Source: Ureibacillus sp. FSL W7-1570 (GTDB lineage: Bacteria; Bacillota; Bacilli; Bacillales_A; Planococcaceae). Taken from it: a DNA stretch of 64,000 nucleotides. Below are positions 3,477 through 27,129 of the stretch, in pieces (position 1 is the first letter of the stretch; every line of letters starts with the position of its first letter). A program made the translations under genes and the position numbers. The notes beneath the pieces were generated by a model that saw only the letters and a program-made list of their open reading frames with translations, ran no database searches and was not told the origin of the DNA. Location of the stretch: NCBI RefSeq assembly GCF_038593265.1, contig NZ_CP151979.1:2797001-2861000 (forward strand), written 5' to 3'.

Positions 3477-4578
3477 AGTTTTCATCCTGGCCACAATTCC
3501 ATTACTGATCCTGCTTTCAGGTTGCGGTGAGTTTAAAGATATCGATAAGATGGTTTTTGTTTCGATGATCGGGGTGGACCGATCGGAGGATCCGGAAAAG
3601 CCTTATAAAATCATTCTAAAGCTTTATGTGCCGACAAGTTCTTTCAGGCAAAATCCCACTCCTGAATATTCATATCTTATAAAAGAAGGAGCGACGTTGG
3701 CCGAAACGATTTCACTGCTGGAAGCTTATATTGATAAAGAATTGGATTTTGGCCACTCGAGGTTGATTGTTGTCGGTGAGAAAATGCTGCAAGATCAAAA
3801 AAATGAGGTAATTTTGGACTTTTTGATCCGAAGACCGGATATTCAAATGATCTCTTACTTTACAGTGGGTAGACCGAATGCGGAAGAAATTGTCAAGTTT
3901 ACCCCCGCCGGAGAAACGGCATTGCAACCAACCCTATTCAATTATTTTGATAATAATGGAGCGGAAAGTTCGTATATCGTAACAACCTTTCTGTTCGATT
4001 TCAGGAGAAGGATCAAGGAAGAAGGAATTAATCCCATTTTGCCGATTGTTGAAATGAACGAACCCAAAACCCATTTTATTGTGAATAAATCCATTGTATT
4101 GGCGGAAGACAAGCCTCCTTATGAACTGGATCCCGAAAAAACGTTGCTTGTCAAATTGCTATCAAATGAAGCAAAAAATGTCATTTTTGATGTGGATAGG
4201 GGAGGCGAGAATTTTGTTGCCAGATTAGATACCGTTAAAACCAAATATAATGTGGATGCCGGAAAAGATGGTAAAGTTTCGATAAAGGTTGAAATCAAAT
4301 TGGCTGGGATGATTACGGAATCGAAAAAAAATTTGAGCAACAAAGAATTGCCAAGATATAACAAACTGTTGACCGAGGAAATGAAGGAGAAAGTGACAGC
4401 GTTCATTCAAGAACTGCAGACGGAAGGATATGATCCGATCGGTTTCGGTTTACAATTAAATTCCCATACTCTGCCGAAAAATCGGATGAGTGAAAATGAA
4501 TGGCTGTCTGCGTTTAAAAATGCGGATGTGGAAGTGAGTGTGAAGGCGGGCTTGAAAAGTACGGGAAGTATTGAATAG
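3448..4578 (+). CDS. Ger(x)C family spore germination lipoprotein (C subunit)
   Basis: A 376-residue lipoprotein. The signal peptide ends at the lipobox LLSGC, and the next residues (the DIDKM and MIGVDRSED motifs) are typical of Ger(x)C proteins. The mature protein should be anchored to the outer face of the inner spore membrane beside the A and B subunits. The GTG at 3448 is chosen because AGGAGG at 3435-3440 precedes it by seven bases; it lies inside the end of the B gene. This closes the three-gene receptor operon, followed by a strong terminator. Confidence 0.92.
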   Translation: MRIIKIVKTKVFILATIPLLILLSGCGEFKDIDKMVFVSMIGVDRSEDPEKPYKIILKLYVPTSSFRQNPTPEYSYLIKEGATLAETISLLEAYIDKELDFGHSRLIVVGEKMLQDQKNEVILDFLIRRPDIQMISYFTVGRPNAEEIVKFTPAGETALQPTLFNYFDNNGAESSYIVTTFLFDFRRRIKEEGINPILPIVEMNEPKTHFIVNKSIVLAEDKPPYELDPEKTLLVKLLSNEAKNVIFDVDRGGENFVARLDTVKTKYNVDAGKDGKVSIKVEIKLAGMITESKKNLSNKELPRYNKLLTEEMKEKVTAFIQELQTEGYDPIGFGLQLNSHTLPKNRMSENEWLSAFKNADVEVSVKAGLKSTGSIE

Positions 4579-4688: not shown

Positions 4689-4709
4689 GAGTTGAAGGAT
4701 TGGAGGTTG

Positions 4710-5027
4710 ATGAAACTGGAAAAAATAAATGGAGAGCATTGTTCTCATCGAAGAAGCCACCATCCGGAACATGTGAAAAAGGATTTGATTACCCGTTTAA
4801 ACCGGATTGAGGGACAAATTCGCGGCGTCAAAGGAATGATTGAACGGGACGAATATTGCGATGATGTCATCACACAAATTGCTGCCACCCAATCGGCTTT
4901 GAACAGTGTCGCCAAAATTTTATTGGAAGGGCACATTAAAGGTTGTGTCGTCAGCAGACTGAGGGATGGCGATGAAGAAATTCTTGATGAATTGATCGTA
5001 ACGATTCAAAAATTAATGCGTAAATAA
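4710..5027 (+). CDS. csoR: copper-sensing transcriptional repressor CsoR
   Basis: A 105-residue all-helical DUF156 (CsoR/RcnR family) protein. The Cu(I)-binding triad is present as Cys50, His75 and Cys79, with the same spacing as in Bacillus subtilis CsoR. The family core RLNRIEGQIRGVKGM is intact, and a His-rich N-terminal stretch precedes it. It would repress its own operon and copA and leave DNA when Cu(I) binds. The ATG at 4710 is chosen because GGAGG lies at 4702-4706; an upstream TTG would fall inside the promoter. copZ follows 14 bases later. Confidence 0.93.
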   Translation: MKLEKINGEHCSHRRSHHPEHVKKDLITRLNRIEGQIRGVKGMIERDEYCDDVITQIAATQSALNSVAKILLEGHIKGCVVSRLRDGDEEILDELIVTIQKLMRK

Positions 5028-5425: not shown

Positions 5426-7855
5426 ATGAATCATGAACAAAATCCAAACTTGAAAGAAACGACCCTTCAGATAACAGGCATGACTTGTGCGGCCTGCGCC
5501 AACCGGATTGAAAAAGGGTTAAAGAAGATGCCTGGTGTGGAAAGTGCCAATGTGAATTTGGCATTGGAAAAATCAACTATTCAATATGATCCAGGCAAGG
5601 TCAGCGTGAAAGATTTGGAAAAGAAAATTGAAGATTTGGGCTATGGTGTGGTGAAAGAGAAAAAGGAACTGGTCATAACAGGCATGACTTGTGCGGCCTG
5701 TGCCAACCGGATTGAAAAAGGACTCAACAAAATGCCGGGTGTCACAAACGCGGCCGTCAACCTGGCTTTGGAGAATGCGACGGTGGAATTCAACCCTTCC
5801 GAAGTGAGCGTGTCCGATATAATTCAACGGATTGAAAAATTGGGATATGGGGCCCATTTGAAAGAAAATGGGCGGGAAGCGACCGATTACCGGGAGCAGG
5901 AAATCAAAAAGCAATTCGTCAAATTTGTGGTGGCCGCCGTTCTTTCGTTGCCCTTGTTATGGACGATGGTCGGGCATTTTCCTTTCACATCCTTTATCTA
6001 TATGCCTGATTTTTTAATGAACCCTTGGGTGCAAATGGCGTTTGCCACACCGGTGCAATTTATCATTGGATGGCAGTTTTACACAAGCGCCTTCAAAGCA
6101 TTGAAAAACGGCAGTGCCAATATGGATGTACTTGTGGTCCTTGGTACGTCCGCCGCATACTTTTATAGTTTCTATCAAACAATAAAAGTGTTTGGAACGA
6201 CTGTGCATCCGGATCTTTATTTTGAAACGGGCGCGGTGTTGATTACATTAATTCTGTTGGGGAAATTGTTTGAAGCGAAAGCAAAAGGGCGCTCTTCCGA
6301 AGCCATCAAGAAGCTGATGGGCTTGCGGGCAAAACAGGCGCGGGTGTTGAGAGACGGCATCGAGAAAGAAATTCCGTTGGATGAAGTCGTTGTGGGCGAC
6401 ATTCTTCTTGTGAAGCCGGGCGAGAAAATCCCGGTGGACGGAGAAGTGATCGAAGGAAATACCGCTGTCGATGAATCGATGCTGACGGGCGAAAGTATCC
6501 CGGTGGATAAAACCGCAGGATCATCCGTTTTCGGTTCAACCATCAATAAAAACGGATTTATCAAAATGAAAGCGACGAAGGTCGGAAAGGACACAGCCCT
6601 TGCGCAAATTATCAAAGTCGTGGAAGACGCCCAAGGTTCGAAAGCTCCCATTCAACGGCTTGCCGACAAAATTTCCGGCATCTTTGTGCCGATTGTCGTT
6701 GGCATCGCCATCATCACGTTTATGGTTTGGATTTTCTTCATAGCACCGGGAGAAGTGGCGGCAGCCCTTGAATCGATGATTTCCGTTTTAGTGATTGCCT
6801 GTCCATGTGCTCTGGGTCTTGCAACGCCGACATCCATTATGGCGGGTACCGGCAGAGCGGCGGAATACGGCATTTTATTCAAAGGCGGCGAATATCTTGA
6901 ACAAACCCACCATGTTGACACGGTCGTAGTCGATAAAACCGGAACCGTCACAAAGGGCGAGCCGGCATTGACGGACGTGGTTGCGGCGGAAGGCAAAGAT
7001 GAACAAGCATTCCTCGCCTTGATTGGTTCTGTAGAAAAACAGTCGGAACACCCATTGGCCCAAGCGATTGTGAAAGGGATTGAAGAGAAAGGGATCTCTT
7101 TCAGCGAAGTTCAAGACTTTTCAGCGATTCCCGGGCTTGGTGTGCAAGGAATTGTGGATGGAAAAAAAGTGCTTGTCGGGAATAGAAGATTTATGCAAAC
7201 GAATCACGTAGATATTTCGGCTGTTTTACCTTACGTGGAACAGCTTGAGGAAAACGGGAAAACCGCCATGTTGGCAAGCATTGACGGCGAGTATGCCGGT
7301 ATGGTGGCGGTCAGCGATACGGTGAAGGAGACGTCGAAACGGGCCATTCAGCGATTAAAAAATATGGGCATTGAAGTGATTATGCTGACGGGAGATAATG
7401 AACGGACAGCGAAAGCGATAGGCGGGGAAGTCGGCGTCAATCAAGTCATTGCGGAAGTGCTTCCTGAGCAGAAGGCGGAAGAAATCAAGAAGTTGCAGGG
7501 GGCAGGCAAGAAAGTGGCAATGGTGGGAGATGGAATCAACGATGCGCCTGCATTGGCCGTTTCAGATATCGGAATGGCCATTGGCACCGGTACGGATGTG
7601 GCCATTGAAGCGGCGGATGTTACGTTAATCCGCGGCGATTTAAACAGCATTGCCGACGCGATTTTGATGAGCCGTAAAACGATGCGGAACATCAAACAAA
7701 ACCTGTTCTGGGCATTTGCATATAACACGATTGGCATTCCCATTGCGGCAGCAGGTTTTCTTGCCCCTTGGGTGGCCGGCGCGGCAATGGCCTTCAGCTC
7801 CGTTTCCGTTGTATTGAATGCATTGCGATTACAACGGGTAAAACTGAACGGCTAA
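5426..7855 (+). CDS. copA: copper-exporting P1B-type ATPase CopA
   Basis: An 809-residue Cu(I) P-type ATPase. Two N-terminal heavy-metal-associated domains each carry [14 protein letters not shown]. Then come eight membrane helices, the TGES actuator motif, the transport-site CPC (Cys459-Pro-Cys461), the phosphorylated Asp503 in DKTGT, and the GDGINDAP hinge. It exports Cu(I) across the cytoplasmic membrane using ATP. The ATG at 5426 is preferred because GGGGGA lies about ten bases before it; an upstream in-frame ATG at 5408 would sit almost on the transcription start. The two metal-binding domains are almost identical at the DNA level over their first 45 bases. It has its own CsoR operator. 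Confidence 0.96.
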
Positions 7856-13563: not shown

Positions 13564-14838
13564 TTATTTTGTTGCATGAGGCAACCATAGAGTGAGGGAA
13601 GGTATATAGGTCAGAATCAACAAGACCACAACGGAAGTGACTAAAAACGGCCATAGAGATCTGACCAACTCGCCAATCGGCACTTTTGTAATGGAAGAGG
13701 CAATGAATAATCCGGAACCGACCGGGGGCGTTAAGATACCAATGGTCAAGTTGATGCAAATGATGATTCCAAAATGAATCGGATCCACATTATACAATGG
13801 AAGCAAAGGCATAAAAATTGGAACCAAAATAATCAATGCGGCAATACCATCCATAAACATTCCCAGAATCAAAAGGAAAATGTTCACGAGCATTAAAAAT
13901 ATCACCGTACTGTCCGAAATGGAAACCATCCATTCGGCAATGAGTTGCGGTACCCGTTCAAAAGCCAGCATCCATCCAAAAATATTGGCCATGGCAATCA
14001 AAATCGTAATGACTGCCGTTGTGGAAACAGTGTTAATTAAAATTCTTGGGATTTGTGAAAACTTAAGTTCCCGATAAAAGAACAGACCCACCAGCAGCGC
14101 AACGAAACTTGCAACGGCTGCAGATTCTGTTGCCGTAAAGGCACCGCTTAAAATGCCGACGATGATAATAAGCGGAACGGAAAGCGCCGGCAGTACACTT
14201 AAAAAGGAGCGAAACATTTCCCCAATCGATGCCCGCTTTTCTTTGGGCCAACTTTCTTTCAAACCAATGAAGGCAATAATGACGATGAAGGAGAGGCCCA
14301 ACAAGATTCCAGGTATTACCCCCGCCTTGAACATGTCCGCAATGGAAGCTCCAGAACTGACACCATAAATAATAAAGAGCATACTTGGCGGGATGATTGG
14401 CCCAAGAAGCCCAGCTGCAGCTGTTGTCGCAGTACTGAAAGATCTGCTGTAGCCCGACTTCTCCATTTCAGGCACCATTGTCCGGCTCATCATGGCAATT
14501 TGAGCTGTTGCGGAACCGATAATGGCCGCCAGCATCATGTTGGCGGCCACGTTTACATATGCGAGTCCGCCTCGAAAATGCCCAATGAACTGTTTCGCAA
14601 AATTCACTAGCCTTTTTGTAATCCCGCCGAAGTTCATCAATTCCCCGGCGAGCATGAAAAGGGGAATTGCAAGTAGTCCGTAGTTTTCCATTCCGGAATA
14701 CAGCCGTTGAGGGACTGTGATTAATAATGTCAAATTATCTGTGGTGAAAATATAGATGACAGTTGTAATTCCAAGAACATAGGCAATTGGGACGCCCAAC
14801 AATAGCAATACAGCAAAAGCAATGAGCGCAATGATCAA
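13564..14838 (-). CDS. dctM: TRAP transporter large permease (DctM family)
   Basis: A 424-residue membrane protein with about twelve hydrophobic helices and the DctM signatures (GIPIAYVLG, FMLAGELMNFGG, GLLGPIIPPS, LTPPVGSGLF). It is the Na+-coupled translocation subunit of a tripartite ATP-independent periplasmic-type transporter. Translation starts at TTG 14838, overlapping the TGA of the small subunit, so the two are coupled. It closes a dctP-dctQ-dctM operon. Adjacent gentisate genes and a shared operator suggest the cargo is an aromatic carboxylate; that is inference. Confidence 0.93.
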   Translation of the reverse strand: MIIALIAFAVLLLLGVPIAYVLGITTVIYIFTTDNLTLLITVPQRLYSGMENYGLLAIPLFMLAGELMNFGGITKRLVNFAKQFIGHFRGGLAYVNVAANMMLAAIIGSATAQIAMMSRTMVPEMEKSGYSRSFSTATTAAAGLLGPIIPPSMLFIIYGVSSGASIADMFKAGVIPGILLGLSFIVIIAFIGLKESWPKEKRASIGEMFRSFLSVLPALSVPLIIIVGILSGAFTATESAAVASFVALLVGLFFYRELKFSQIPRILINTVSTTAVITILIAMANIFGWMLAFERVPQLIAEWMVSISDSTVIFLMLVNIFLLILGMFMDGIAALIILVPIFMPLLPLYNVDPIHFGIIICINLTIGILTPPVGSGLFIASSITKVPIGELVRSLWPFLVTSVVVLLILTYIPSLTLWLPHATK

Positions 14839-15332
14839 TGTAAGGCACCCCCATCTTCTCCCTTAAAGGTCTGGATTGTGTTATTGATGACATGGATCGT
14901 CGAAAAGGCAAAGGAAATTGGGATACTTAAGTAAAAATAGATTTTAGGCCAATTTAAAGCTGTTGATTTTTGAATGAAAATATTCGGTTTCATAATCCAA
15001 TCCATTGCCAAGTAGAGAACATAGGCAACAAAGATTAATAAGATGAGGTTGCTGATGATCGTCAAATATTTTTTATACGTTTTCGAAACCGCATCAATGA
15101 ATAACGTGATGGAAGGTGAGCTTTTTTCTTTCAAAACCATGCTTCCGCCAATGAATGTAATCCAGATCAAGCAGAAGATGGCCAACTCATCTGACCATAA
15201 TAAAGGGCTTTTCAACACATAACGGAAGAAAAATCCTCCAACCATCGATATTAACAATGTCATCGCAAGAGTAAATGCCAACACTTTCTCAATGAAATAA
15301 ACGACATCGCTGATTTTGTTAATAACTTTCAA
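14835..15332 (-). CDS. dctQ: TRAP transporter small permease (DctQ family)
   Basis: A 165-residue protein with four membrane helices and the DctQ pattern of a Trp-containing second helix (LLWSDELAIFCLIWITFIGG). It is the small membrane subunit that pairs with DctM. The start is TTG 15332 with AGAGGGTG upstream. A stem-loop separates it from dctP, and its stop overlaps the dctM start. Confidence 0.9.
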   Translation of the reverse strand: MKVINKISDVVYFIEKVLAFTLAMTLLISMVGGFFFRYVLKSPLLWSDELAIFCLIWITFIGGSMVLKEKSSPSITLFIDAVSKTYKKYLTIISNLILLIFVAYVLYLAMDWIMKPNIFIQKSTALNWPKIYFYLSIPISFAFSTIHVINNTIQTFKGEDGGALH

Positions 15333-15432: not shown

Positions 15433-16461
15433 CTATTTATTGCTTTCAGCCTCTTCAATAAATGCTTTGATAATATCTGATTTCTCGGAAAATTCATTTC
15501 GAACTTCATCTGTTACTGTCTGGAAGGCAGAAGTATCAATATTTTCCAATACTTCAACACCGGCGTCTTTTAATGTTTGCAAATTGGATTCTTCACGTTT
15601 AATGGCTTCTTGCACTCCCCAGTCAACCGCATTTTTCAATGCTGTACGGATCATCTCTTGATCTTCCGGTGATAATGAATCATAAACTTGTTTACTCATT
15701 ACGATGACAGTAGGGAATGTCATTTGGTTTGTTAAGGTTAAATATTTAGCCACTTCATAATATTTCTCAGTGACTAGAGCATCCAAATCGATATCAATGC
15801 CATCGATTACGCCTGTTTGTAAAGAAGTATAAACTTCACTCAGCGGCATTGCTGTCGGTCCAGCACCAACTTTTTCCCAGTAAGATTGCATGGCAGGGCT
15901 ACCGATAATTCGGATCTTTTTCCCTTTCAAATCTGCAGGAGATTTCGCAAAGCCATCCGTCATCAAAACATGTCGGTTTCCGGCAAACATAAAGTCCAGA
16001 CCCACCAGACCCTGGGAATTCAATTCCTCCAGCATTTGTTTTGCCGGTTCAGATTCCCGCAGTGCTATAGCTTCCTCTATACTTGAGAATAAATAAGGCA
16101 TAAACCAGGCATTCAATGAATCTTGACGGGTGCTCATGTAAGCGTTTGTCATAAAGCCAAAGTCAATGGCACCGGTTTCTAATTGTTGCACCATATCCGC
16201 TTCCGTTCCCAATGTTGAAGCAGGGTGAATTTCAATATCAAAACGTCCATCCGAAAGTTTTCTTAATTCTTCACCAAATTTCTCGGCTGTTACGTTCCAG
16301 ACGTGATTTTCCTGCACAACGTGAGCAATCTTAAATACGCGGGTTTCCCCCTCAGCCCCCGCATTTCCGTTGGATTCGGAAGAGTCGTTGCTTCCGCATG
16401 CAGCTAATGCAAGAACTAATCCCCCAATAAGAAAAGAAAAAAATAATTTTTTAAAACTCAT
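15433..16461 (-). CDS. dctP: TRAP transporter substrate-binding lipoprotein (DctP family)
   Basis: A 342-residue lipoprotein. A signal peptide ends at the lipobox ALAAC, then a Ser/Asn-rich linker and a DctP domain. The conserved Arg of the carboxylate-binding site lies in the segment GKKIRIIGSP, followed by the typical LSEVYTSLQTGVIDG motif. It captures a carboxylate outside the membrane for DctQM. The ATG at 16461 is chosen because AAGGGGGA precedes it; the open frame continues 20 codons upstream without a site. Its promoter carries the operator shared with the gentisate genes. Confidence 0.93.
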   Translation of the reverse strand: MSFKKLFFSFLIGGLVLALAACGSNDSSESNGNAGAEGETRVFKIAHVVQENHVWNVTAEKFGEELRKLSDGRFDIEIHPASTLGTEADMVQQLETGAIDFGFMTNAYMSTRQDSLNAWFMPYLFSSIEEAIALRESEPAKQMLEELNSQGLVGLDFMFAGNRHVLMTDGFAKSPADLKGKKIRIIGSPAMQSYWEKVGAGPTAMPLSEVYTSLQTGVIDGIDIDLDALVTEKYYEVAKYLTLTNQMTFPTVIVMSKQVYDSLSPEDQEMIRTALKNAVDWGVQEAIKREESNLQTLKDAGVEVLENIDTSAFQTVTDEVRNEFSEKSDIIKAFIEEAESNK

Positions 16462-16605
16462 AAAAATCCCCCTTGTTTGAATAAAAAATAATATGTAAAA
16501 GACTATTTGCAATAAAATCAATCTATCAATATTACATGATAGTCTTTGACAACATATTCAATTTTTTAAGTAAACCAATCGTAAAATCATTGTCCTTAAA
16601 TAGAA

Positions 16606-16623
16606 AATTTCGTTTACGAAATT
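16606..16623. promoter_or_regulatory. palindrome in the dctP leader
   Basis: Perfect inverted repeat AATTTCGT-TT-ACGAAATT between the dctP promoter and gene. It differs from the 19-bp operator shared with the neighbours and may bind a second regulator. Confidence 0.45.
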
Positions 16624-16635
16624 AACGTCTATTAA

Positions 16636-16683
16636 TAGTGAACTTGATACACTAATAATATAAATTTGTCACAATAGTGTCAA
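16636..16683 (-). promoter_or_regulatory. dctP promoter with island operator
   Basis: Minus-strand TTGACA (16678-16683) and TATTAT (16655-16660) are 17 bp apart. The operator TAGTGAA-N5-TACACTA (16636-16654) abuts the -10 box, covering the expected transcription start. Confidence 0.8.
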
Positions 16684-16737
16684 TATTTTTCACATTTCCA
16701 ACTTAGAAAAATTGAAAACTTATTAGAAAAAAATGAG

Positions 16738-16776
16738 ATAAAAGAGCAGAATCCCATTTGGAGATTCTGCTCTTAT
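16738..16776 (-). terminator. terminator after gentisate dioxygenase gene
   Basis: Stem AAGAGCAGAATC / GATTCTGCTCTT followed on the minus strand by TTATCTC. Confidence 0.75.
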
Positions 16777-16784
16777 TTGTTTCA

Positions 16785-17918
16785 TCATCTGAATGCCGCT
16801 TTAAATTCTCCGGTGATTTCTTGGAATCCATTATTAGATTCATATTTTTGTTCAACTTCCAGGTCGAAGCGTTCCATAATCGGCAAGTCGTTGACAGAGA
16901 ACAGGTAAGAGTCCTCGGATGCCACATGTTCATACCAAGCCCAGTTCGGTACTACAAAATAGTCGCCTTGTTTCCAGTCGAAGCGCACACCGTTGATCAC
17001 CGAATAACCGGAACCTTTGTGCACGTTATAAACCGTTGAATGTGTATGACGCAACGCTTTTGTATGGAAACCTTTCGGCAAAAATTGCATTCGGGTACCA
17101 AGAGTAGGGTTAGCCGATTTGCCAGTGGATGGATTAATGTATTCCACTGCATAACCGTGGTTTGGATCCGGATCGAATTCCATTAATCCTTTGATGGCAT
17201 CGACTGTTCGCTGCCATTTGAAGTTTGCCAGTGGTGCAATTGTATATTTGCCATCTCCCAATGGGCGAACCATGCCGCCTTGGTAACGTTTTTCGCTGAA
17301 GTTGTCCGGCACTTCCGGACGTTGTAAACCGTCTTCTGTATCTTCGTATGGGTCAAAGAATGTACCGCCAATCGCAAATACGGTTGGAATGTCTAATGCA
17401 TCCATCCATAACATTGGCTCGGTGCCAACATGTTCATGGCCATGCCATAAACCTTTCGGAGTGATGAGGAAATCTCCTTCCTCCATGAATACCCGTTGTC
17501 CTTGGACAATTGTGTATGCACCAGAACCTTTTGAAATAAAGCGCATGGCGTTTTGAGAGTGGCGGTGGGATGGCGCCTTTTCACCAGGCAGCAAGCTTTG
17601 GACAGCTACATAGATTGTTTGGGTTGTGGATGCCCACCCCCAAGGTTTGCGATAGGTCAAACCAGGATTTTGGAAATAGATTGCCCGGCGTTCACCACCG
17701 CGTTCAGGTGTAAAAATTTGGGTAGCTTCCGCCATTTTCTTCTCAATCAATTCACTGCTCCAAAGATAAGCTTCCGCTTGCGGAGTCGGTGTGTGATGCA
17801 TGATTTCTGGAATCGCTTCCCAAAGTGGCCCAAGATGATACTGCTGAATGTCTCTCGTGAAATCGGTTACAATGGAACTTTTCATAAATTCTTTCATTTC
17901 TTGACTTACTTCACCCAT
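16785..17918 (-). CDS. gentisate 1,2-dioxygenase
   Basis: A 377-residue bicupin. The first cupin (about residues 100-165) carries HRHSQNAMRF and the GLWHGHEH metal ligands; the second (about 270-335) carries LRHTHSTVYNV and WYEHVA. This layout and length match ring-cleaving gentisate 1,2-dioxygenases, which use Fe(II) and O2 to open gentisate to maleylpyruvate. 1-Hydroxy-2-naphthoate dioxygenase is a close relative and cannot be fully excluded, but the neighbouring flavoprotein hydroxylase and FAH hydrolase favour gentisate. The ATG at 17918 is chosen because AAAGGAG lies seven bases before it; the ATG two codons earlier is too close. It follows the hydrolase gene by 70 bases in one operon. 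Confidence 0.92.
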   Translation of the reverse strand: MGEVSQEMKEFMKSSIVTDFTRDIQQYHLGPLWEAIPEIMHHTPTPQAEAYLWSSELIEKKMAEATQIFTPERGGERRAIYFQNPGLTYRKPWGWASTTQTIYVAVQSLLPGEKAPSHRHSQNAMRFISKGSGAYTIVQGQRVFMEEGDFLITPKGLWHGHEHVGTEPMLWMDALDIPTVFAIGGTFFDPYEDTEDGLQRPEVPDNFSEKRYQGGMVRPLGDGKYTIAPLANFKWQRTVDAIKGLMEFDPDPNHGYAVEYINPSTGKSANPTLGTRMQFLPKGFHTKALRHTHSTVYNVHKGSGYSVINGVRFDWKQGDYFVVPNWAWYEHVASEDSYLFSVNDLPIMERFDLEVEQKYESNNGFQEITGEFKAAFR

Positions 17919-17988
17919 GGTCATTCTCCTTTTCCAATTATTTTTTAAAGGGAGCAGCCGATAAGCTGCTTATACCAAATGGCTGGCA

Positions 17989-18939
17989 TTAAACGTTTGC
18001 CGGTTGTTTGACAGCTTTCACTTTATTTTCAAGTACTCCAATCTTCTCGATTTCGATTGTGACAACATCTCCGTCTTTTAAGAATTGAGGAGGGTTCATG
18101 GCAAAACCGACGCCTCCAGGGGTACCTGTCAATATAAGATCGCCTGGCTCAAGAGTCAATAAGCCGGATAAGAAGGAAACCAGTTTTGGAACATTAAATA
18201 CAAAGTCATCGGTATTGGTAGATTGTCTCACTTCACCGTTTACTTTTAAGACCATTTCAAGTCCAGCCGGATCGCCGATTTCATCCGCAGTCACTAAGTG
18301 AGGCCCCAACGGTAAAGAGCCGTCCACTGTTTTTCCTTGCAGCCATTGAAGGGTGCGGCGTTGAATATCGCGATATGTGACGTCGTTGGCAATGGTATAT
18401 CCTGCCACATAATCGAGCGCATCTTCTTCAGAAACATTCCGTGCTTGTTTACCAATGACGAAAGCGAATTCCATCTCATAATCCAGCTGTTCAGAAATAG
18501 GATAGTATGGAATGTCATCTTCCGGACCGATAATCGTGTTGGCAAATTTTGCAAAAATGACTGGATGGGTTGGAATTTCTCGGCCCATTTCTTGAATATG
18601 TTTACGAAAGTTGTGGCCTACACAAATGATCTTTCCAGGTTTTTGAACAGGTGCTTCAATTTTCACTTCACTGCGGTGGTAAACCGCTTTTTTATCGGAA
18701 TAATCAGGGTTTTCCAAAATGAAATCGATGGCTCCTTGTGCAAGTACCAATGATTCTTTTCCACCCTGGAACAGTTCATCTGTTATGGCAGGTACATATG
18801 CATGGGCAATTTCTTGATAACGGTATTTGCCTTGTGCTTTAAGCTGAGCCTGGTAAGCGCAGTTTAAATCGATCACTTGATTGTTTACAATTGCACCGGC
18901 GCGGATGTGTCCGTCTGCTGTAAAATTGACTAATTTCAT
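17989..18939 (-). CDS. FAH-family hydrolase, probable fumarylpyruvate hydrolase
   Basis: A 316-residue fumarylacetoacetase-fold protein. An N-terminal domain of about 75 residues precedes the FAH core with GKIICVGHNFRKH, the metal ligands in DYEMEFAFVIGK, and the C-terminal LTGTPGGVGFAM motif. In the gentisate pathway such enzymes split fumarylpyruvate (or maleylpyruvate) into pyruvate and fumarate (or malate). The extra N-terminal domain makes it longer than the roughly 230-residue NagK-type enzymes. It is the promoter-proximal gene of the dioxygenase operon, with AGGAGG before its ATG. Substrate is inferred from context. Confidence 0.88.
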   Translation of the reverse strand: MKLVNFTADGHIRAGAIVNNQVIDLNCAYQAQLKAQGKYRYQEIAHAYVPAITDELFQGGKESLVLAQGAIDFILENPDYSDKKAVYHRSEVKIEAPVQKPGKIICVGHNFRKHIQEMGREIPTHPVIFAKFANTIIGPEDDIPYYPISEQLDYEMEFAFVIGKQARNVSEEDALDYVAGYTIANDVTYRDIQRRTLQWLQGKTVDGSLPLGPHLVTADEIGDPAGLEMVLKVNGEVRQSTNTDDFVFNVPKLVSFLSGLLTLEPGDLILTGTPGGVGFAMNPPQFLKDGDVVTIEIEKIGVLENKVKAVKQPANV

Positions 18940-18963
18940 TAATTGTCCTCCTAATTATAATTA

Positions 18964-19022
18964 TAGAGAATCAAGTTCACTATTTATATAAAAATATTAA
19001 TCTCTTGTAAAAATGTTGTCAA
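18964..19022 (-). promoter_or_regulatory. promoter of the hydrolase-dioxygenase operon with island operator
   Basis: Minus-strand TTGACA (19017-19022) and TAATAT (18994-18999) have the ideal 17-bp spacing. The operator TAGAGAA-N5-TTCACTA (18964-18982) lies just past the expected start site, so binding would block elongation or initiation. Confidence 0.82.
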
Positions 19023-19055
19023 TATTTTTTGTTTTCAGAAATATCCATGTAGAAA

Positions 19056-19087
19056 TAAAAAACTCCCACCTTTAAAAGCAGGCGGGA
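19056..19087 (-). terminator. terminator after the first IclR gene
   Basis: Stem CCCGCCT / AGGTGGG with G-U pairing, followed on the minus strand by six T. Confidence 0.75.
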
Positions 19088-19101
19088 AAAGATTTTTAAG
19101 G

Positions 19102-19863
19102 TTATTCACTTGAAACGGATTCGGAAAAACCGTATTGAGAGGAAATTTCCTTGCTGATGTTGATAATGTATCGGCTGACCGGATGATCCGATGAAGTGGG
19201 AATAGTTTGCGTATAGCCGACAATGGTGATTGCCCCCAGTAATTCCTTTTCAAAATTTAAAATTGGGACGCTGAAGGAAGATACATGGGTTACTAATGGT
19301 TCAATTTTTGAGACAAAATAAGTTTTTCTTGCCGTTTCGAATTCTTTTTGCAGTTCTTTTAATTGTGCTTCATTCAATTTTTCCATTTCGGAATCAAGCC
19401 ATTTTTTGACCAGTTCATTATGGAAGGAAGCAAAAATGACTCCGGTAGATGAATGTAAAGGCAAGTTTGTTCCAATTTGCGCACCGATGTTAATTCCATA
19501 TAATGCGTCTGAAATATAGGAAACCAGAGGACCGCCGACGGATGGCACCGCAAGTAGGGCGGTAAGACCGGTTTTCTCGCTGATTTTTTTCAAATACGGA
19601 ATCACCACTTCCACGATTGAAGTTTGTCCCTGGGCAAGATTCCCCAATTGAATCAATTTATGTCCCAAAGAATAAGTATTGTCGGGATTTCGCTGAATCG
19701 CCCCGAATTCATGCAAGGTTGTCAAATATTTGTGCAAATTGCTTTTGGTCATTGATGTGATGTTTTGTATTTCTGAAAATTTCAATGGCTTATTATGGGT
19801 TGCGATGATTTCTAAAATGTTTAAACCGATTTCTAATGATTGAATCTTGTTTTCTTTTGACAT
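19102..19863 (-). CDS. IclR family transcriptional regulator
   Basis: A 253-residue IclR protein: an N-terminal winged helix-turn-helix (about residues 8-65) and a C-terminal effector domain (about 80-250) with YGINIGAQIGTNLPLHSS and VSSFSVPILN. It is divergent from the flavoprotein hydroxylase gene and co-directional with the dioxygenase operon. It is the best candidate to bind the 19-bp inverted repeat found at three island promoters, with an aromatic acid as effector. Start ATG has GGAGG six bases upstream. It is clearly paralogous to the IclR protein at 21561-22313. Confidence 0.92.
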   Translation of the reverse strand: MSKENKIQSLEIGLNILEIIATHNKPLKFSEIQNITSMTKSNLHKYLTTLHEFGAIQRNPDNTYSLGHKLIQLGNLAQGQTSIVEVVIPYLKKISEKTGLTALLAVPSVGGPLVSYISDALYGINIGAQIGTNLPLHSSTGVIFASFHNELVKKWLDSEMEKLNEAQLKELQKEFETARKTYFVSKIEPLVTHVSSFSVPILNFEKELLGAITIVGYTQTIPTSSDHPVSRYIINISKEISSQYGFSESVSSE

Positions 19864-19948
19864 AATATTCCTCCAACTACATCTGATGTCCGATATTATA
19901 GCAAATAATTGATTTAGAAAGAAATTTTAGAATTTTTCGATTTAAATA

Positions 19949-20004
19949 TTGACGGATATTAGAATTGTATTATAAAGTTTTCTTAAAGAGAACGCTGTTC
20001 TCTA
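19949..20004 (+). promoter_or_regulatory. hydroxylase promoter with island operator
   Basis: TTGACG (19949-19954) and TATAAA (19971-19976), 16 bp apart. The operator AAGAGAA-N5-TTCTCTA (19986-20004) lies just past the expected start site, the same geometry as at the two other island promoters. Confidence 0.78.
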
Positions 20005-20045
20005 AAAATGGAACGATTGATTCAAACAAAGGGGTGGAGTTTTTT

Positions 20046-21236
20046 ATGTCAAAAATTAGTGATGTGATTGTAGTAGGCGGTGGAATCGGGGGATTAGCCG
20101 CTGCTTTAGCTGCAAATGATGCGGGGAAATCTGTTGCGGTATTTGAACAGGCGCCGGAATTTGGAGAAGTGGGGGCAGGTCTGCAATTGGCGCCGAATGC
20201 ACTTGAAGTGTTGGATCGCTTCGGGGTAAAGGAAGAAATATTAAAATATGCCGTATTGCCAAAAAGATTAGTATTAAAGGATATTTATTCAGGAAAAGAA
20301 GTGGCATCCCTTGATTTGGGAGAGGGATTCCAAAAAGAGTTTGGCCAACCTTATATCGTAATGCACCGTTCCGATTTGCACCGTGTGCTCTTTGAAGCAT
20401 GTCAAAAACGGAAAAACATCAAATTTTTCACAAACTCAAGAATTCAAACTGCGGAACAAGAAAATGGCACTGTTACAATCATTTCTGAGAAAGGCGACAG
20501 ATATTCAGCGGATGCCGTTATTGGTGCGGATGGGGTAAAATCGAATCTTCGCAAATTATTTGTTGACGATGCCCCGGTGAACTCGGAGTATGTGGCGTAT
20601 CGTGGAACGATTCCGATCGAAGAAGTGAAAGATCAAGTGACGTTGGATGATGTGATTATGTGGATTGGTCCAAATCTTCACTTGGTGCAATATCCAATCC
20701 GCCGCGGAGAATTATTCAATCTGGTAGTGGTTTTCAAATCTTACGATACATCCGTGGAAGATTGGGGAACGCCGGAAGAATTATTCCGCCGCTTTGAAGG
20801 GGCACATCCGGATGCACATTATTTATTAAAATTCATCAATCGCCAGTTCAAATGGCAGATGTTTGACCGGGAACCGATTGACACTTGGTCAAAAGGCAAT
20901 ATAACATTGCTTGGAGATGCGGCTCATGCGATGTTGCAATATCTTGCACAAGGCGGCGTTCAAGCGCTTGAAGATGCTTGGTGCCTAAGAGAAAAACTGA
21001 TTGAATGCGATACGTATGAAGAAGCGTTTAAAAAATATGAAAAAATCCGCGCTCCCCGTGCCGGCATGGTTCAACGGAGTGCCCGCAAGTGGGGGGAAAT
21101 TATCCATGCGGAAGATGAAGTGTTAAAAATGGTGCGGGATGCAGTGTTCGAAAGACATAAACCTACAGATTATCATGTCGTAGACTTCCTATACGGCATT
21201 TTTAAAAAAGAAAAGGAAGTGTCCGGCATTCAGTGA
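20046..21236 (+). CDS. FAD-dependent aromatic hydroxylase, probable 3-hydroxybenzoate 6-hydroxylase
   Basis: A 396-residue single-component flavoprotein monooxygenase. The FAD-binding GGGIGGLAAALA motif is at the N-terminus, the DG motif (GADGVKS) near residue 165, and the GDAAHAM motif near residue 290 with the following LAQGGVQALED. It should use NAD(P)H and O2 to hydroxylate an aromatic acid. Next to gentisate dioxygenase the expected reaction is 3-hydroxybenzoate to gentisate; salicylate 1-hydroxylase-type or hydroxynicotinate-type activity is less likely. The ATG at 20046 is chosen because GGGGTGGAG precedes it. It is transcribed away from its probable IclR regulator and ends just before a MITE-like element. 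Confidence 0.88.
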   Translation: MSKISDVIVVGGGIGGLAAALAANDAGKSVAVFEQAPEFGEVGAGLQLAPNALEVLDRFGVKEEILKYAVLPKRLVLKDIYSGKEVASLDLGEGFQKEFGQPYIVMHRSDLHRVLFEACQKRKNIKFFTNSRIQTAEQENGTVTIISEKGDRYSADAVIGADGVKSNLRKLFVDDAPVNSEYVAYRGTIPIEEVKDQVTLDDVIMWIGPNLHLVQYPIRRGELFNLVVVFKSYDTSVEDWGTPEELFRRFEGAHPDAHYLLKFINRQFKWQMFDREPIDTWSKGNITLLGDAAHAMLQYLAQGGVQALEDAWCLREKLIECDTYEEAFKKYEKIRAPRAGMVQRSARKWGEIIHAEDEVLKMVRDAVFERHKPTDYHVVDFLYGIFKKEKEVSGIQ

Positions 21237-21252
21237 TATATGGAACAAAAAT

Positions 21253-21549
21253 GAGGCTGGGACATAACTAATAAAGTGAACGAGCTGCAAAAAGAATTTT
21301 TGTAAAAAATTGATTGGAGTGACGGGGCGAGTGCTCCTGTCGCTCCGCTTTCGTCGCAAAGCAAAAGCTTTCCTGCGGGAACAGCCCGAGTCTCGAGACC
21401 CCGCAGGAGCGAAGGATTGAGCTCCGAGGAGGCTCGAGCCGGGCCCGCGGAAAGCGTCCCCGGAACGGAAATCAATTTTCTTCAATTATCAAAAAAACAC
21501 CATTTTCTCCCGGGAGAAAATGGTGTTTTTTATCTTTTGTCCCAGCCTC
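21253..21549. mobile_element. MITE-like element with IS1182-type ends
   Basis: A 297-bp non-coding segment bounded by inverted repeats GAGGCTGGGACA. The repeat extends outward as AAAAAT on both sides, giving 18 bp in total. The intact IS1182-family element at 25324-27144 has the same 12-base core at both ends. Its interior is G+C-rich with nested inverted repeats (for example CCTGCGGG / CCCCGCAGG). It sits exactly between two converging genes and its right end supplies a terminator hairpin. No transposase is encoded; mobilisation by the IS1182 transposase is inferred from the shared ends. Confidence 0.65.
21491..21532. terminator. bidirectional terminator hairpin inside the MITE-like element
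   Basis: Perfect palindrome: AACACCATTTTCTCC paired with its complement, flanked by A and T runs on both strands. It would end both the hydroxylase and the second IclR transcripts. Confidence 0.85.
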
Positions 21550-21560
21550 ATTTTTCACTC

Positions 21561-22313
21561 TTATTCATGATAGCCGTAAATTCTTGACATTTCCTTGCAT
21601 ATGTCGATGACTTTTTGAATCATTTCAACTTTTGGATCGTTCGGGATGTTTTCCGTAAACCCGATTACCGCAACAGCGGCTATAATTTCATTTTTGTAAT
21701 TTAAAATCGGCACGCCGAAAGAAGATACATGATTGACAAGCGGTTCCTTCGCAAAGGCTACATGGGAGCTGCGGATTTCCTGCAATTCTTTATGAAATTG
21801 TTCCTCAGAAAAATTCGGAATCCTTTCTTGCTCCAGCTTAATCCATTGGGCCACTTCTTCGTTCTTTGAATAGGCGGCAAACACTTTCCCGGCGGCGGAT
21901 AAAAGAGGCAGTTTTGTGCCGATTTGGGCGCCGATATTAATGCCGTAATTGGTATTCCAAATATTTGTAATCACCGGGCAATCATTTAACCAAATGGAAA
22001 GAGAAGTGGACATCTGCGTAATATTGCTGATTTCTTTGAAGTACGGAGATAATTTGCTTGTGATATCATGATTTCTCATGGCTGCATTTCCGTATTCAAG
22101 GAGTTTGTAGCCAAGAGAGTAGGAACCTTGTCGATCCCGATATAACAGGTCAAGCTGTGTTAGTGTGTTCAAATATTTATAAAGGTTGCTTTTGGATATA
22201 CCTGTTTTTTGCTGGAGTTCCGTAAATTTCACCGGAACGTCGCTTTGTGCGACGACATCAATGATTTTAATCCCTTGACTAAGTGAACCGATAGTTGAAG
22301 GAGATTTTGTCAT
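21561..22313 (-). CDS. second IclR family transcriptional regulator
   Basis: A 250-residue IclR protein with the winged helix-turn-helix (KFTELQQKTGISKSNLYKYL) and an effector domain carrying YGINIGAQIGTKLPLLSA and VNHVSSFGVPILN, the same segments as in the IclR at 19102-19863. The two are paralogues, probably from a local duplication. It is divergent from the DinB-fold gene and may control it. Start ATG has AAAGGA upstream. Its own target site was not identified. Confidence 0.9.
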   Translation of the reverse strand: MTKSPSTIGSLSQGIKIIDVVAQSDVPVKFTELQQKTGISKSNLYKYLNTLTQLDLLYRDRQGSYSLGYKLLEYGNAAMRNHDITSKLSPYFKEISNITQMSTSLSIWLNDCPVITNIWNTNYGINIGAQIGTKLPLLSAAGKVFAAYSKNEEVAQWIKLEQERIPNFSEEQFHKELQEIRSSHVAFAKEPLVNHVSSFGVPILNYKNEIIAAVAVIGFTENIPNDPKVEMIQKVIDICKEMSRIYGYHE

Positions 22314-22439
22314 AAAAATTGTTCCTTTCTGGTGTAGGTTGTATTCATTGCGTATTCATTAATAATAGTTTAATATTTTATGATATATATTATCAATATA
22401 AGGGGTAAAATTCACTATTTTGATAAAGGGGAGTTTGAT

Positions 22440-22934
22440 ATGGTTGTTCAAGTATTAAATGACAAACTGGTATCATTCAAAAACAGTATAGAGAAAATCA
22501 TTGAAGTGCTGGAAAACACAGATGAAGAAAAGTTGTATATGAAGCCTTCCGAAAAGGAATGGTCCGCTATGCAAATTGTATCACATGTTTTGGAAGCAGT
22601 GGATTTTTGGGTGGCGGATTTAGAAGCATTGCTTATTGTACCAGGGGCCAAATGGGGACGCAATCACGAGCATGTTCGCCGTTTGGCAGCGGTTAGTGAT
22701 CAGGTGGTATCCCAATTGAAAAAAGAAGAAGCGGTTGAAAAACTAAAAAATCTTGTTCCTAAAGTTGAACAGGTACTGTCAAAAGTGAAGGAAGAGGATT
22801 TAGAAAAAACCGCGCCCAGCTATAATCCAAAGTTTGATGGCAAACCGTTGTCTTTTTTAATCGATCACTTAATTATCGATCATGTGGAAAGTCATTACGG
22901 CCAAATGGTACGTCATCTTGAAAAAGTGAAGTAA
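22440..22934 (+). CDS. DinB-fold metalloprotein, candidate thiol-dependent maleylpyruvate isomerase
   Basis: A 164-residue four-helix DinB/YfiT-fold protein with the metal triad His49, His148 and His152 (SHVLEAV and DHVESHYGQM). DinB proteins include bacillithiol S-transferases and the mycothiol-dependent maleylpyruvate isomerase of actinobacteria. The gentisate genes beside it encode every other step but no isomerase of the glutathione type. This protein could therefore convert maleylpyruvate to fumarylpyruvate with bacillithiol as cofactor; that assignment is inference from fold and position. The ATG at 22440 is chosen because AAGGGGAG precedes it. It could equally be an unrelated bacillithiol transferase. 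Confidence 0.85.
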   Translation: MVVQVLNDKLVSFKNSIEKIIEVLENTDEEKLYMKPSEKEWSAMQIVSHVLEAVDFWVADLEALLIVPGAKWGRNHEHVRRLAAVSDQVVSQLKKEEAVEKLKNLVPKVEQVLSKVKEEDLEKTAPSYNPKFDGKPLSFLIDHLIIDHVESHYGQMVRHLEKVK

Positions 22935-25476: not shown

Positions 25477-27129
25477 ATGTTCAAATATTATAACATGAAT
25501 CAATTAGTTTTGCCTCTAGATTTAGAAATAAAATTACAAGAAAATGATATTGCCTTCCACATTCACCATTTAGTTGAAAGTATTCCAGATGAAGCCTTCC
25601 AGCCGTTTCTTCGAAATACAGGTTGTCCTGCTTATCATCCACGCATGATGCTAAAAATTATTTTGTGTGCCTATTCGCAGTCTGTCTTTTCAGGTCGAAA
25701 AATTGAAGCGCTATTAAAGGACAGTATACGAATGATGTGGTTGGCACAAGGATATGAACCAAGTTATCGGACGATCAATCGTTTTCGTGTGCATCCGGAA
25801 GTAAAAGAATTAATTCGTCAATGTTTTGTCCAATTCCGTTGCCAACTGGTGGAAGAAAAGTTAATCGATCAAGAAGCCATTTTTATCGATGGTACGAAGA
25901 TTGAAGCGAATGCCAATAAATTTACTTTCGTATGGAAGAAATCCATTGAAAAATACAACCAAAGCTTAATTGAAAAATCCAATCAGCTCTACAACGAACT
26001 GTTAGAGAAGGAAATCATCCCTGAAATGGAGCGGGAAAATGAGGGAGAACTGTCCGTTGAAGAACTCGCTCAAATGGTGCAACAAGTCGATGAAGTGATT
26101 ACGGAATATGACCAAAAGATAGAAGCATCGCCCGATGCCACAGAACGAAAAGCATTAAGAAGCGAACGGAAATATCCGAAGCGAGTGTACAAACAGTTGA
26201 TTGACTTGATTTTACGTAAACAAAAGTATCAAAAAGACTTCGAAATCTTGGGTGAACGGAATAGTTATTCCAAAACAGACTTAGATGCGACGTTCATGCG
26301 AATGAAAGACGACTATATGAAAAACGGTCAATTGAAGGCTGGATACAACGTACAAATCGCAACAGAAGGTCAATACGCACTAGCTTATAGCATCTTTCCA
26401 AATCCTACTGATACACGTACATTAATTCCGTTCTTGAATAAGATAGAAAAGGATTATTTTCCGTTGCCAAAGTATATTGTCGCAGATGCTGGTTATGGTA
26501 GTGAACAAAACTATGAAGACATCCTTTCGAATCGAAAATGTGAGGCACTCATTCCATATACCATGTATGAGAAAGAACAAAAGAAGAAATATAAACAAAA
26601 TCCATTTCATCCAGACAATTGGATGTACGACGAAGAAAGTGATACCTACATTTGTCCAAATCAGCAGCGAGTAACCTTCCGTTATCGTTCTGTACGTACA
26701 GATAAGACTGGTTTCAAACGAGAATTGAAAATCTATGAATGTGAAAACTGTTCAGGATGTCCATTTCGTTCATCATGCACAAAAGCAAAGGAAGGCAATC
26801 ACCGAAAGGTCATGGTGAATGAAAAATGGGAACAACAAAAAGAATATGTAAGAGCGAAGCTTTCAGAAGAAAAAGCTGGTTCTATTTTCCGTCAACGTAA
26901 AATAGACGTAGAACCAGTTTTTGGATTCTTGAAGGCTAATTTGCGTTTCACTCGATTTTCCGTTCGAGGAAAATCGAAAGTGGAAAATGAAATGGGCATT
27001 GCCTTAATGGCCGTGAATTTACGAAAATACACGGCCAACAAAGATCAACTAACCAAAAATAATGGGGATAAATGGAAAAAGGAGAATTTGAGTTGGCTCA
27101 AATTCTCCTTTTTCCTATCTAGAAGCTAG
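25477..27129 (+). CDS. IS1182 family DDE transposase
   Basis: A 550-residue transposase. An N-terminal DUF772-type domain (NTGCPAYHPRMMLKIILCAY, near residues 48-67) is followed by the catalytic core with Asp138 (FIDGTKIEANAN), Asp337 (VADAGYG) and Glu479 (VEPVFGFLKANLRFTRFSVRG). A Cys-rich motif (CENCSGCPFRSSC) lies before the Glu. It cuts and joins the IS ends. The length is full for the family and no frameshift is seen, so it is probably active. Its last codons run through the right-end hairpin and the stop TAG is the first codon touching the terminal repeat. Confidence 0.95.
   Translation: MFKYYNMNQLVLPLDLEIKLQENDIAFHIHHLVESIPDEAFQPFLRNTGCPAYHPRMMLKIILCAYSQSVFSGRKIEALLKDSIRMMWLAQGYEPSYRTINRFRVHPEVKELIRQCFVQFRCQLVEEKLIDQEAIFIDGTKIEANANKFTFVWKKSIEKYNQSLIEKSNQLYNELLEKEIIPEMERENEGELSVEELAQMVQQVDEVITEYDQKIEASPDATERKALRSERKYPKRVYKQLIDLILRKQKYQKDFEILGERNSYSKTDLDATFMRMKDDYMKNGQLKAGYNVQIATEGQYALAYSIFPNPTDTRTLIPFLNKIEKDYFPLPKYIVADAGYGSEQNYEDILSNRKCEALIPYTMYEKEQKKKYKQNPFHPDNWMYDEESDTYICPNQQRVTFRYRSVRTDKTGFKRELKIYECENCSGCPFRSSCTKAKEGNHRKVMVNEKWEQQKEYVRAKLSEEKAGSIFRQRKIDVEPVFGFLKANLRFTRFSVRGKSKVENEMGIALMAVNLRKYTANKDQLTKNNGDKWKKENLSWLKFSFFLSRS
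27071..27116 (+). terminator. hairpin inside the right end of the IS, within the transposase codons
   Basis: Stem AAAAAGGAGAATTTGAG with its complement ending in CTCCTTTTTCC. It overlaps the last transposase codons, so termination and coding share the same bases. Confidence 0.75.

Follow-up and report, generated by a model that had tools for sequence, protein, structure and literature searches.

Which signal controls the genes of a putative 3-hydroxybenzoate and gentisate island as a unit, and does the importer found next to them belong to the same regulon? The question is raised by a 64,000 nt stretch of the genome of Ureibacillus sp. FSL W7-1570 (assembly GCF_038593265.1, contig NZ_CP151979.1, positions 2,797,001 to 2,861,000). 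We call this whole stretch the window, and all positions below are counted from its first nucleotide; it lies inside a genome which is a single contig of 3.28 Mb. The island includes genes for a hydroxylase, a hydrolase and a dioxygenase, a tripartite ATP-independent periplasmic (TRAP) importer with the solute-binding gene dctP, a DinB-like gene and two IclR-type regulators, IclR1 and IclR2. We propose, with a probability of roughly 0.77, that IclR-type repressors control this regulon by binding the palindrome TAGWGAAC-N3-GTTCWCTA as their operator, and are released by an aromatic compound.

A sequence-only reading of this DNA had described three 19-bp palindromes of the type TAGWGAA-N5-TTCWCTA, each of them behind a good promoter, and had taken them as a single operator which defines a small local regulon. 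All three palindromes exist, with 1, 0 and 1 mismatches (dctP, hydrolase and hydroxylase, respectively). The three -35/-10 pairs which had been named are also present, and the operators begin 0–11 bp past the -10:

16636–16654, minus strand: dctP operator, TAGTGAACTTGATACACTA, 1 mismatch; it reads TAGTGTATCAAGTTCACTA in the dctP direction
16655–16683, minus strand: predicted dctP promoter, TTGACA-17-TATTAT; the operator starts 0 bp past the -10
18964–18982, minus strand: hydrolase-dioxygenase operator, TAGAGAATCAAGTTCACTA, 0 mismatches; it reads TAGTGAACTTGATTCTCTA in the gene direction
18994–19022, minus strand: predicted hydrolase promoter, TTGACA-17-TAATAT; the operator starts 11 bp past the -10
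19986–20004, plus strand: hydroxylase operator, AAGAGAACGCTGTTCTCTA, 1 mismatch
19949–19976, plus strand: predicted hydroxylase promoter, TTGACG-16-TATAAA; the operator starts 9 bp past the -10

When up to three mismatches are allowed, the pattern is unremarkable in the window: There are 12 matches, against a mean of 7.11 in shuffled sequences, and 11 of 100 shuffles reach 12. In the strict tier, three window positions agree with TAGWGAAC-N3-GTTCWCTA in at least 14 of 16 positions, against a mean of 0.08, and none of 300 permuted palindromes reaches three. In the whole genome, exact matches to WAGWGAA-N5-TWCWCTA are found at these three places only. With up to one mismatch, the genome has 18 strand hits and a reversed control has 17, a control total which counts all hits with up to one mismatch; there are 11 one-mismatch places elsewhere in the genome.

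The presence of the operator in related genomes is the evidence which carries our proposal. Proteins similar to IclR1 (E 1e-40) are found in 23 of the 261 genomes of the family, the Ureibacillus genome included, and a search at the order level again covered 261 genomes and gave the same 23. At the class level, 398 genomes were sampled and an IclR2-like protein (E 1e-35) is found in five besides the original one. The loci compared are 24 from the first search and six from the second. The test set has 27 loci, one per genome (L035–L056, L095 and L097–L100), and leaves out the window and three others: L057, a second contig of G248; L058, a second IclR locus of G207 whose enzyme matches are only 25–41%; and L096, the second IclR of G349, whose stretch lacks gentisate genes. 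As controls (L101–L110), we used ten gentisate dioxygenase loci whose stretch contains no close IclR of this group. Their origin varies: The genomes of four (G051, G058, G031 and G009) have no IclR match, while the other six are second dioxygenase loci in genomes which have this IclR elsewhere. In six of the ten, the dioxygenase is just 41–49% identical. A distant IclR (21%) is found near L101 and L105. Gene distances were measured to where the protein match starts rather than to start codons; a match which sets in within the protein makes them too long.

The operator had been said to stand or fall with its conservation upstream of orthologous genes, and it stands. In 26 of the 27 loci, at least one of four genes (hydrolase, hydroxylase, dioxygenase, dctP) has a site of 13/16 or more upstream. 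These loci cover 14 of 14 genera and five families; the one miss, L042, reaches 12/16. At 14/16 or more, sites are found in 21 loci and 11 of the 14 genera. For 500 permuted palindromes at 13/16, the mean is 0.63 loci and the maximum is 6 of 27. Counted per gene, a site of 13/16 or better is present in 46 of the 69 upstream stretches, while permuted palindromes give 0.49 on average and 7 at most. No such site is present in any of the ten control loci. One example is the dctP site of the window, which differs at two of 19 positions from that of L035, and also at two from that of the distant L097, which belongs to another family. The permuted palindromes and the control loci rule out chance as the origin of the sites. 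The idea of a single operator defining a small local regulon is thus supported, both by the strict-tier sites and by their conservation.

Since the sites are found in or near the predicted transcribed leader, they might also be bound by an unrelated regulator encoded elsewhere, or form an RNA element. We consider this very improbable: The operator accompanies the IclR group in all 14 genera, and is missing from the ten gentisate loci without this group nearby. In addition, the dctP operator starts directly past the -10, so it would not be wholly transcribed there.

The sequence TTGAC is found at most 50 bp upstream of the site in 21 of 21 hydrolase, 17 of 18 hydroxylase and 12 of 12 dctP cases, when 0.6, 0.5 and 0.4 would be expected. 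Across relatives, the operator begins 0–13 bp past the predicted -10, the position of a repressor site as far as predicted start sites can tell. For the hydrolase, 17 of the 23 family loci (counting the window) have the centre of the site 31–41 bp ahead of the protein match. This arrangement, with sites over or just past the predicted start and beside strong core promoters, suits a repressor which an aromatic ligand would release.

What we observe is that the sites exist, stand at predicted promoters, are conserved and occur together with the IclR group; from this we infer binding, repression, an inducer and a division of roles between the paralogues. A dimer, or a dimer of dimers, of IclR2 and probably also of IclR1 would occupy the start site. 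Bound just past a strong sigma-A-type promoter, it would block RNA polymerase at the hydroxylase gene, the hydrolase-dioxygenase operon and the TRAP importer, and in nine of ten close relatives also at the gene of the DinB-like isomerase. An aromatic compound of the pathway, such as 3-hydroxybenzoate, gentisate or a product of ring cleavage, would bind the C-terminal domain of IclR and lead to its release. In a LysR-type system of Cupriavidus, the true inducer is described as 3-maleylpyruvate (PMC11603403).

The sign of the control should also be considered. Several other IclR regulators of aromatic catabolism are activators. The IclR proteins of the island might likewise be activators or dual regulators acting through these sites, as reported for GenR, which is said to activate and repress the gen genes in the title of a reference in PMC8222616. 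This appears unlikely: The sites are found past the -10, next to well-formed -35/-10 pairs, where a bound protein would block the polymerase.

Which of the two IclR proteins binds the operator? Both contain the domains PF09339 (HTH_IclR) and PF01614 (IclR_C) above the gathering score, so they are members of the IclR family. The sequence-only reading had chosen the protein encoded at 19102–19863, which is IclR1. Its gene adjoins the hydroxylase operator, about 132 bp away, and as a protein of the IclR family it could be the only one to bind, leaving another role for IclR2. The distribution of the two proteins makes this quite unlikely. In a tree which leaves out the distant class-level proteins, IclR1 forms a clade of 13 rows (support 98/97), IclR2 a clade of 17 rows (support 93/98), and a third group has 7 rows (support 93/89). 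IclR2 is present in all 13 genomes with IclR1, which is never found alone. Four genomes (G155, G156, G011 and G019) have IclR2 and no IclR1 at the cut-offs used, and they keep the operator, with best scores of 14, 14, 15 and 13; genomes of the third group also carry it, with scores of 13–15. The recognition helix regions of the window proteins, MTKSNLHKYL in IclR1 and ISKSNLYKYL in IclR2, are nearly identical, so both paralogues may bind.

The operator thus goes with the IclR group as a whole. IclR2 is more likely to be the main binder, with IclR1 as an additional copy, since IclR1 is never alone and the operator is kept in the four genomes which have IclR2 only. The assignment to IclR1 alone is set aside as underdetermined and corrected in this sense, with IclR1 probably one of two binders.

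Several points weigh against a common IclR operator. Of the hydrolase rows, 5 of 28 lack a site of 12/16 within 450 bp, as do 8 of the 27 for the hydroxylase and 5 of the 17 for dctP (counting the window). Several of these genes are inside an operon whose first gene has a site (L050 and L051, for example), but other promoters without a site are not explained in this way: hydroxylase and dctP in L040, dctP in L042 and hydrolase in L053 and L054. The DinB-like gene has a site in only 9 of 26 rows, with TTGAC at none of them, and its window copy reaches just 10/16. The enzymes score below the equivalog cut-offs of NCBIfam, so their exact substrate is putative. The operator has TAGW/WCTA arms, unlike the IclR group 2 motif of PMC8222616, where they are TG/CA. 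Finally, exact matches to WAGWGWA-N5-TTCWCTA are not enriched in 30 genomes (46 strand hits, against 60 for the reversed control), and eight genomes with the cluster have none.

Of those 46 hits, 20 are inside the clusters and 26 outside. Three of the outside places (L111–L113) were inspected for distal members of the regulon and treated as chance, because L111 lies between converging genes and the other two precede genes without a visible link.

The paralogues might also divide the regulon according to two flavours of the operator, one of them with a preference for GAGAAC/GTTCTC, at the hydroxylase, and the other for GTGAAC/GTTCAC, at the dioxygenase operon, the importer and the isomerase. 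Both paralogues are present in genera g1 and g8. There, the W position of the hydroxylase half-sites is A in 17 of 20 cases and never T, while T is found in 48 of 56 half-sites at the other promoters. A also predominates in three genomes with IclR2 only (G155, G156 and G011). Related genomes are not independent samples, L045 and L046 have both paralogues and yet A-type hydrolase sites, L097 shows both flavours with a single IclR found, and the recognition helices hardly differ. A split of this kind is therefore doubtful.

The sites also have a conserved neighbour, absent from the sequence-only reading. We have collected a set of 60 sites of at least 12/16, after removing sites with less than 50 bases before them and, by hand, four rows (MHB of L052, and DinB of L055, L095 and L097); the L100 row for MHB in this set belongs in fact to the operator of the adjacent MFS (major facilitator superfamily) gene. 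A box similar to TAGTGRAA peaks at offset 1 behind the operator: 22 of the 60 sites reach at least 6/8, against 0–5 at each of 17 other offsets. The mean score is 5.07, and 2.87 for shuffled sequences (maximum 3.43 in 2000 shuffles). When each genus contributes a single site per gene (n = 22), the values are 4.64 and 2.84. Hydroxylase promoters often have the box in the form TTTGTGGAAT, even though 33 to 87 bp separate site and gene in the eight relatives whose match starts at residue 1. The window has a poor version:

20005–20014, plus strand: aaaatggaac, a weak match to the downstream box TTTGTGGAAT and a possible third half-site

A left-hand box peaks too (mean 4.4, offset 1), probably as part of the promoter sequence, so the score of the right-hand box may partly reflect base composition. 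IclR sites with three boxes are described in PMC8222616; our third box is put forward with caution, because its spacing differs from that of group 1 in that paper. Tentatively, the two paralogues could have begun to divide the pathway by means of one operator position, perhaps sensing substrate and intermediate separately, while the third half-site would set the strength. The pair is in any case a compact natural example of how duplicated repressors may share or split their operators.

Some loci have unusual arrangements of sites. In L095, two overlapping palindromes (4692–4719) form three half-sites upstream of the hydrolase, with a second site 230 bp away, at 4462. L098 has a similar pair at 6080 and 6297, 217 bp apart. 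Looping is therefore possible in these two loci. The second, diverged IclR-dioxygenase locus of G207 (L058) has a variant site, CTGAGAACTTAGTTCTCTT, at 16475, about 78 bp before the dioxygenase.

The genes of the island, and a fourth site which had also escaped the sequence-only reading, are the following:

13564–14838, minus strand: TRAP large permease DctM (PF06808; TIGR00786 above cut-off)
14835–15332, minus strand: TRAP small permease DctQ (PF04290)
15433–16461, minus strand: TRAP solute-binding protein DctP (PF03480; TIGR00787 above cut-off)
16785–17924, minus strand: gentisate 1,2-dioxygenase-like cupin enzyme (TIGR02272, 277.2 bits, cut-off 442.1)
17989–18939, minus strand: fumarylpyruvate hydrolase-like enzyme of the FAH family (PF01557), named from its position in the pathway
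19102–19863, minus strand: IclR-type regulator 1 (PF09339, PF01614), IclR1 clade
20046–21236, plus strand: 3-hydroxybenzoate 6-hydroxylase-like flavoprotein (PRK08163, 407.5 bits, cut-off 459)
21561–22313, minus strand: IclR-type regulator 2 (PF01614, PF09339)
22399–22417, plus strand: fourth operator, half decayed, ahead of the DinB-like gene: TAAGGGGTAAAATTCACTA, with an intact right half and 10/16 counted by hand
22440–22934, plus strand: DinB-superfamily protein (PF12867), probable thiol-dependent maleylpyruvate isomerase

The dctP-dctQ-dctM and hydrolase-dioxygenase genes run leftward, the hydroxylase and DinB-like genes rightward. The names of the three enzymes rest on family, best solved relatives and gene order, because the NCBIfam equivalog cut-offs are missed. 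All six solved relatives listed for the dioxygenase at E 1e-20 carry the name gentisate dioxygenase, and its score against the 5-aminosalicylate dioxygenase model is 289.7 bits (cut-off 650). PRK08163 is by far the best match of the hydroxylase, yet below its cut-off. A solved relative of this enzyme, 4bjy, is recorded as a probable salicylate monooxygenase; we take it to be 3-hydroxybenzoate 6-hydroxylase. IclR1 is 85% identical to a protein of Ureibacillus terrenus.

Thiol-dependent isomerases of the DinB type exist in other Gram-positive bacteria. The DinB-like protein of the island is probably a thiol-dependent maleylpyruvate isomerase: It has a DinB-superfamily domain within a gentisate cluster, and in 12 relative or control loci (L047, L050, L051, L055, L056, L095, L097–L100, L102 and L103) its gene is placed between hydrolase and dioxygenase. 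A comparison with solved chains gave no match at E 0.01. The score of the fourth operator, 10, is the best in the window stretch before this gene. Sites of at least 12/16 precede the gene in nine relative loci, all of them from genera g1 and g8; these are nine of the ten g1 and g8 relatives with the cluster, the miss being G238 (L041).

Two other features are found near these genes. A 550 amino acid open reading frame (25477–27129) reads like an insertion sequence (IS)-type transposase, from its translation alone. Between the hydroxylase and IclR2 genes (21250–21556), a long inverted repeat can be seen by eye, with ends ATGAGGCTGGGACA and TGTCCCAGCCTCAT; it looks like a dispersed intergenic repeat or a terminator.

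Does the importer belong to the regulon? The sequence-only reading had tied the TRAP transporter to aromatic catabolism, and this link is supported by the shared operator at dctP, which is kept in relatives. TRAP genes are present in the fetched stretch of 16 of the 27 loci, and in 11 of these 16 dctP has a site of at least 12/16; the site of L098, 359 bp from dctP, may belong to a different gene. In two distant relatives, L099 and L100, the stretch has no TRAP genes, and the operator is found before MFS genes instead. L100 has two operators, one at 43 bp from the MFS gene which follows it and one in the region that separates the hydroxylase from another MFS gene; in L099, the distance is about 350 bp. 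Compared with TIGR00895 (aromatic acid/H+ symport, cut-off 418.55), the L100 proteins score 376 and 379 bits, that of L099 80 bits. The operator before MFS genes where TRAP genes are absent from the stretch supports the link with uptake, so that the operator seems to follow uptake whatever the type of transporter, with the MFS cases coming from two loci.

The names of the solved relatives of DctP are not informative about its substrate: They are generic (TRAP or substrate-binding) or refer to the sialic acid protein SiaP. TRAP transporters for aromatic acids are known, such as TarPQM and FcbT. The likeness is a DctPQM importer under an aromatic regulon, with a substrate which is putative here.

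The dctP leaders have other possible signals. In the window, an inverted repeat (AATTTCG-TTTA-CGAAATT, 16606–16623) is found 12 bp from the operator, perhaps the site of a second regulator. In L037, L038 and L039, a sequence similar to a catabolite-responsive element (cre), ATGAAAACGCTTTTT, is near the operator (14/15), and L053 and L054 have a 15/15 match; this suggests catabolite repression of the importer in the L037–L039 relatives. A cre site for CcpA in the window leader was set aside, since 13/15 is the usual best score there.

How does this system compare with known ones? In the literature, judged from titles and the beginnings of abstracts, we have found no work on regulators of gentisate genes in Bacilli; the supplementary site lists of PMC8222616 were outside this comparison. 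A binding site and a regulon for gentisate catabolism in Bacilli are now predicted in a form which can be tested. Both IclR proteins have PcaR/PcaU/PobR (TIGR02431) as their best NCBIfam match, with 74 and 91.2 bits, far below the 284.75 bits which this group requires; aromatic catabolism is what they have in common with it. One published motif of the group, TTGTCCGATSATCGGACAR, is unlike our operator (PMC8222616).

GenR of Corynebacterium glutamicum is likewise an IclR-type regulator of 3-hydroxybenzoate and gentisate genes. Its motif, ATTCC-N7(5)-GGAAT (Table 1 of PMC8222616), differs from the GAAC-N3-GTTC found here and cannot be seen by eye in the three window sites; GGAAT is found behind 7 of the 18 hydroxylase operators. 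Another difference is that the cluster we have studied contains a pair of paralogues. There is also a likeness with the IclR group 2 operators, whose motif is given as TGRAACA-N1-2-TGTTYCA by Suvorova and Gelfand (2021, PMC8222616). They have the same RAAC-N3-GTTY core, with the same spacing, as the GAAC-N3-GTTC of our sites. This core is present in the consensus of the 60 sites; in the window, the hydroxylase site fits both halves and each of the other two fits one half.

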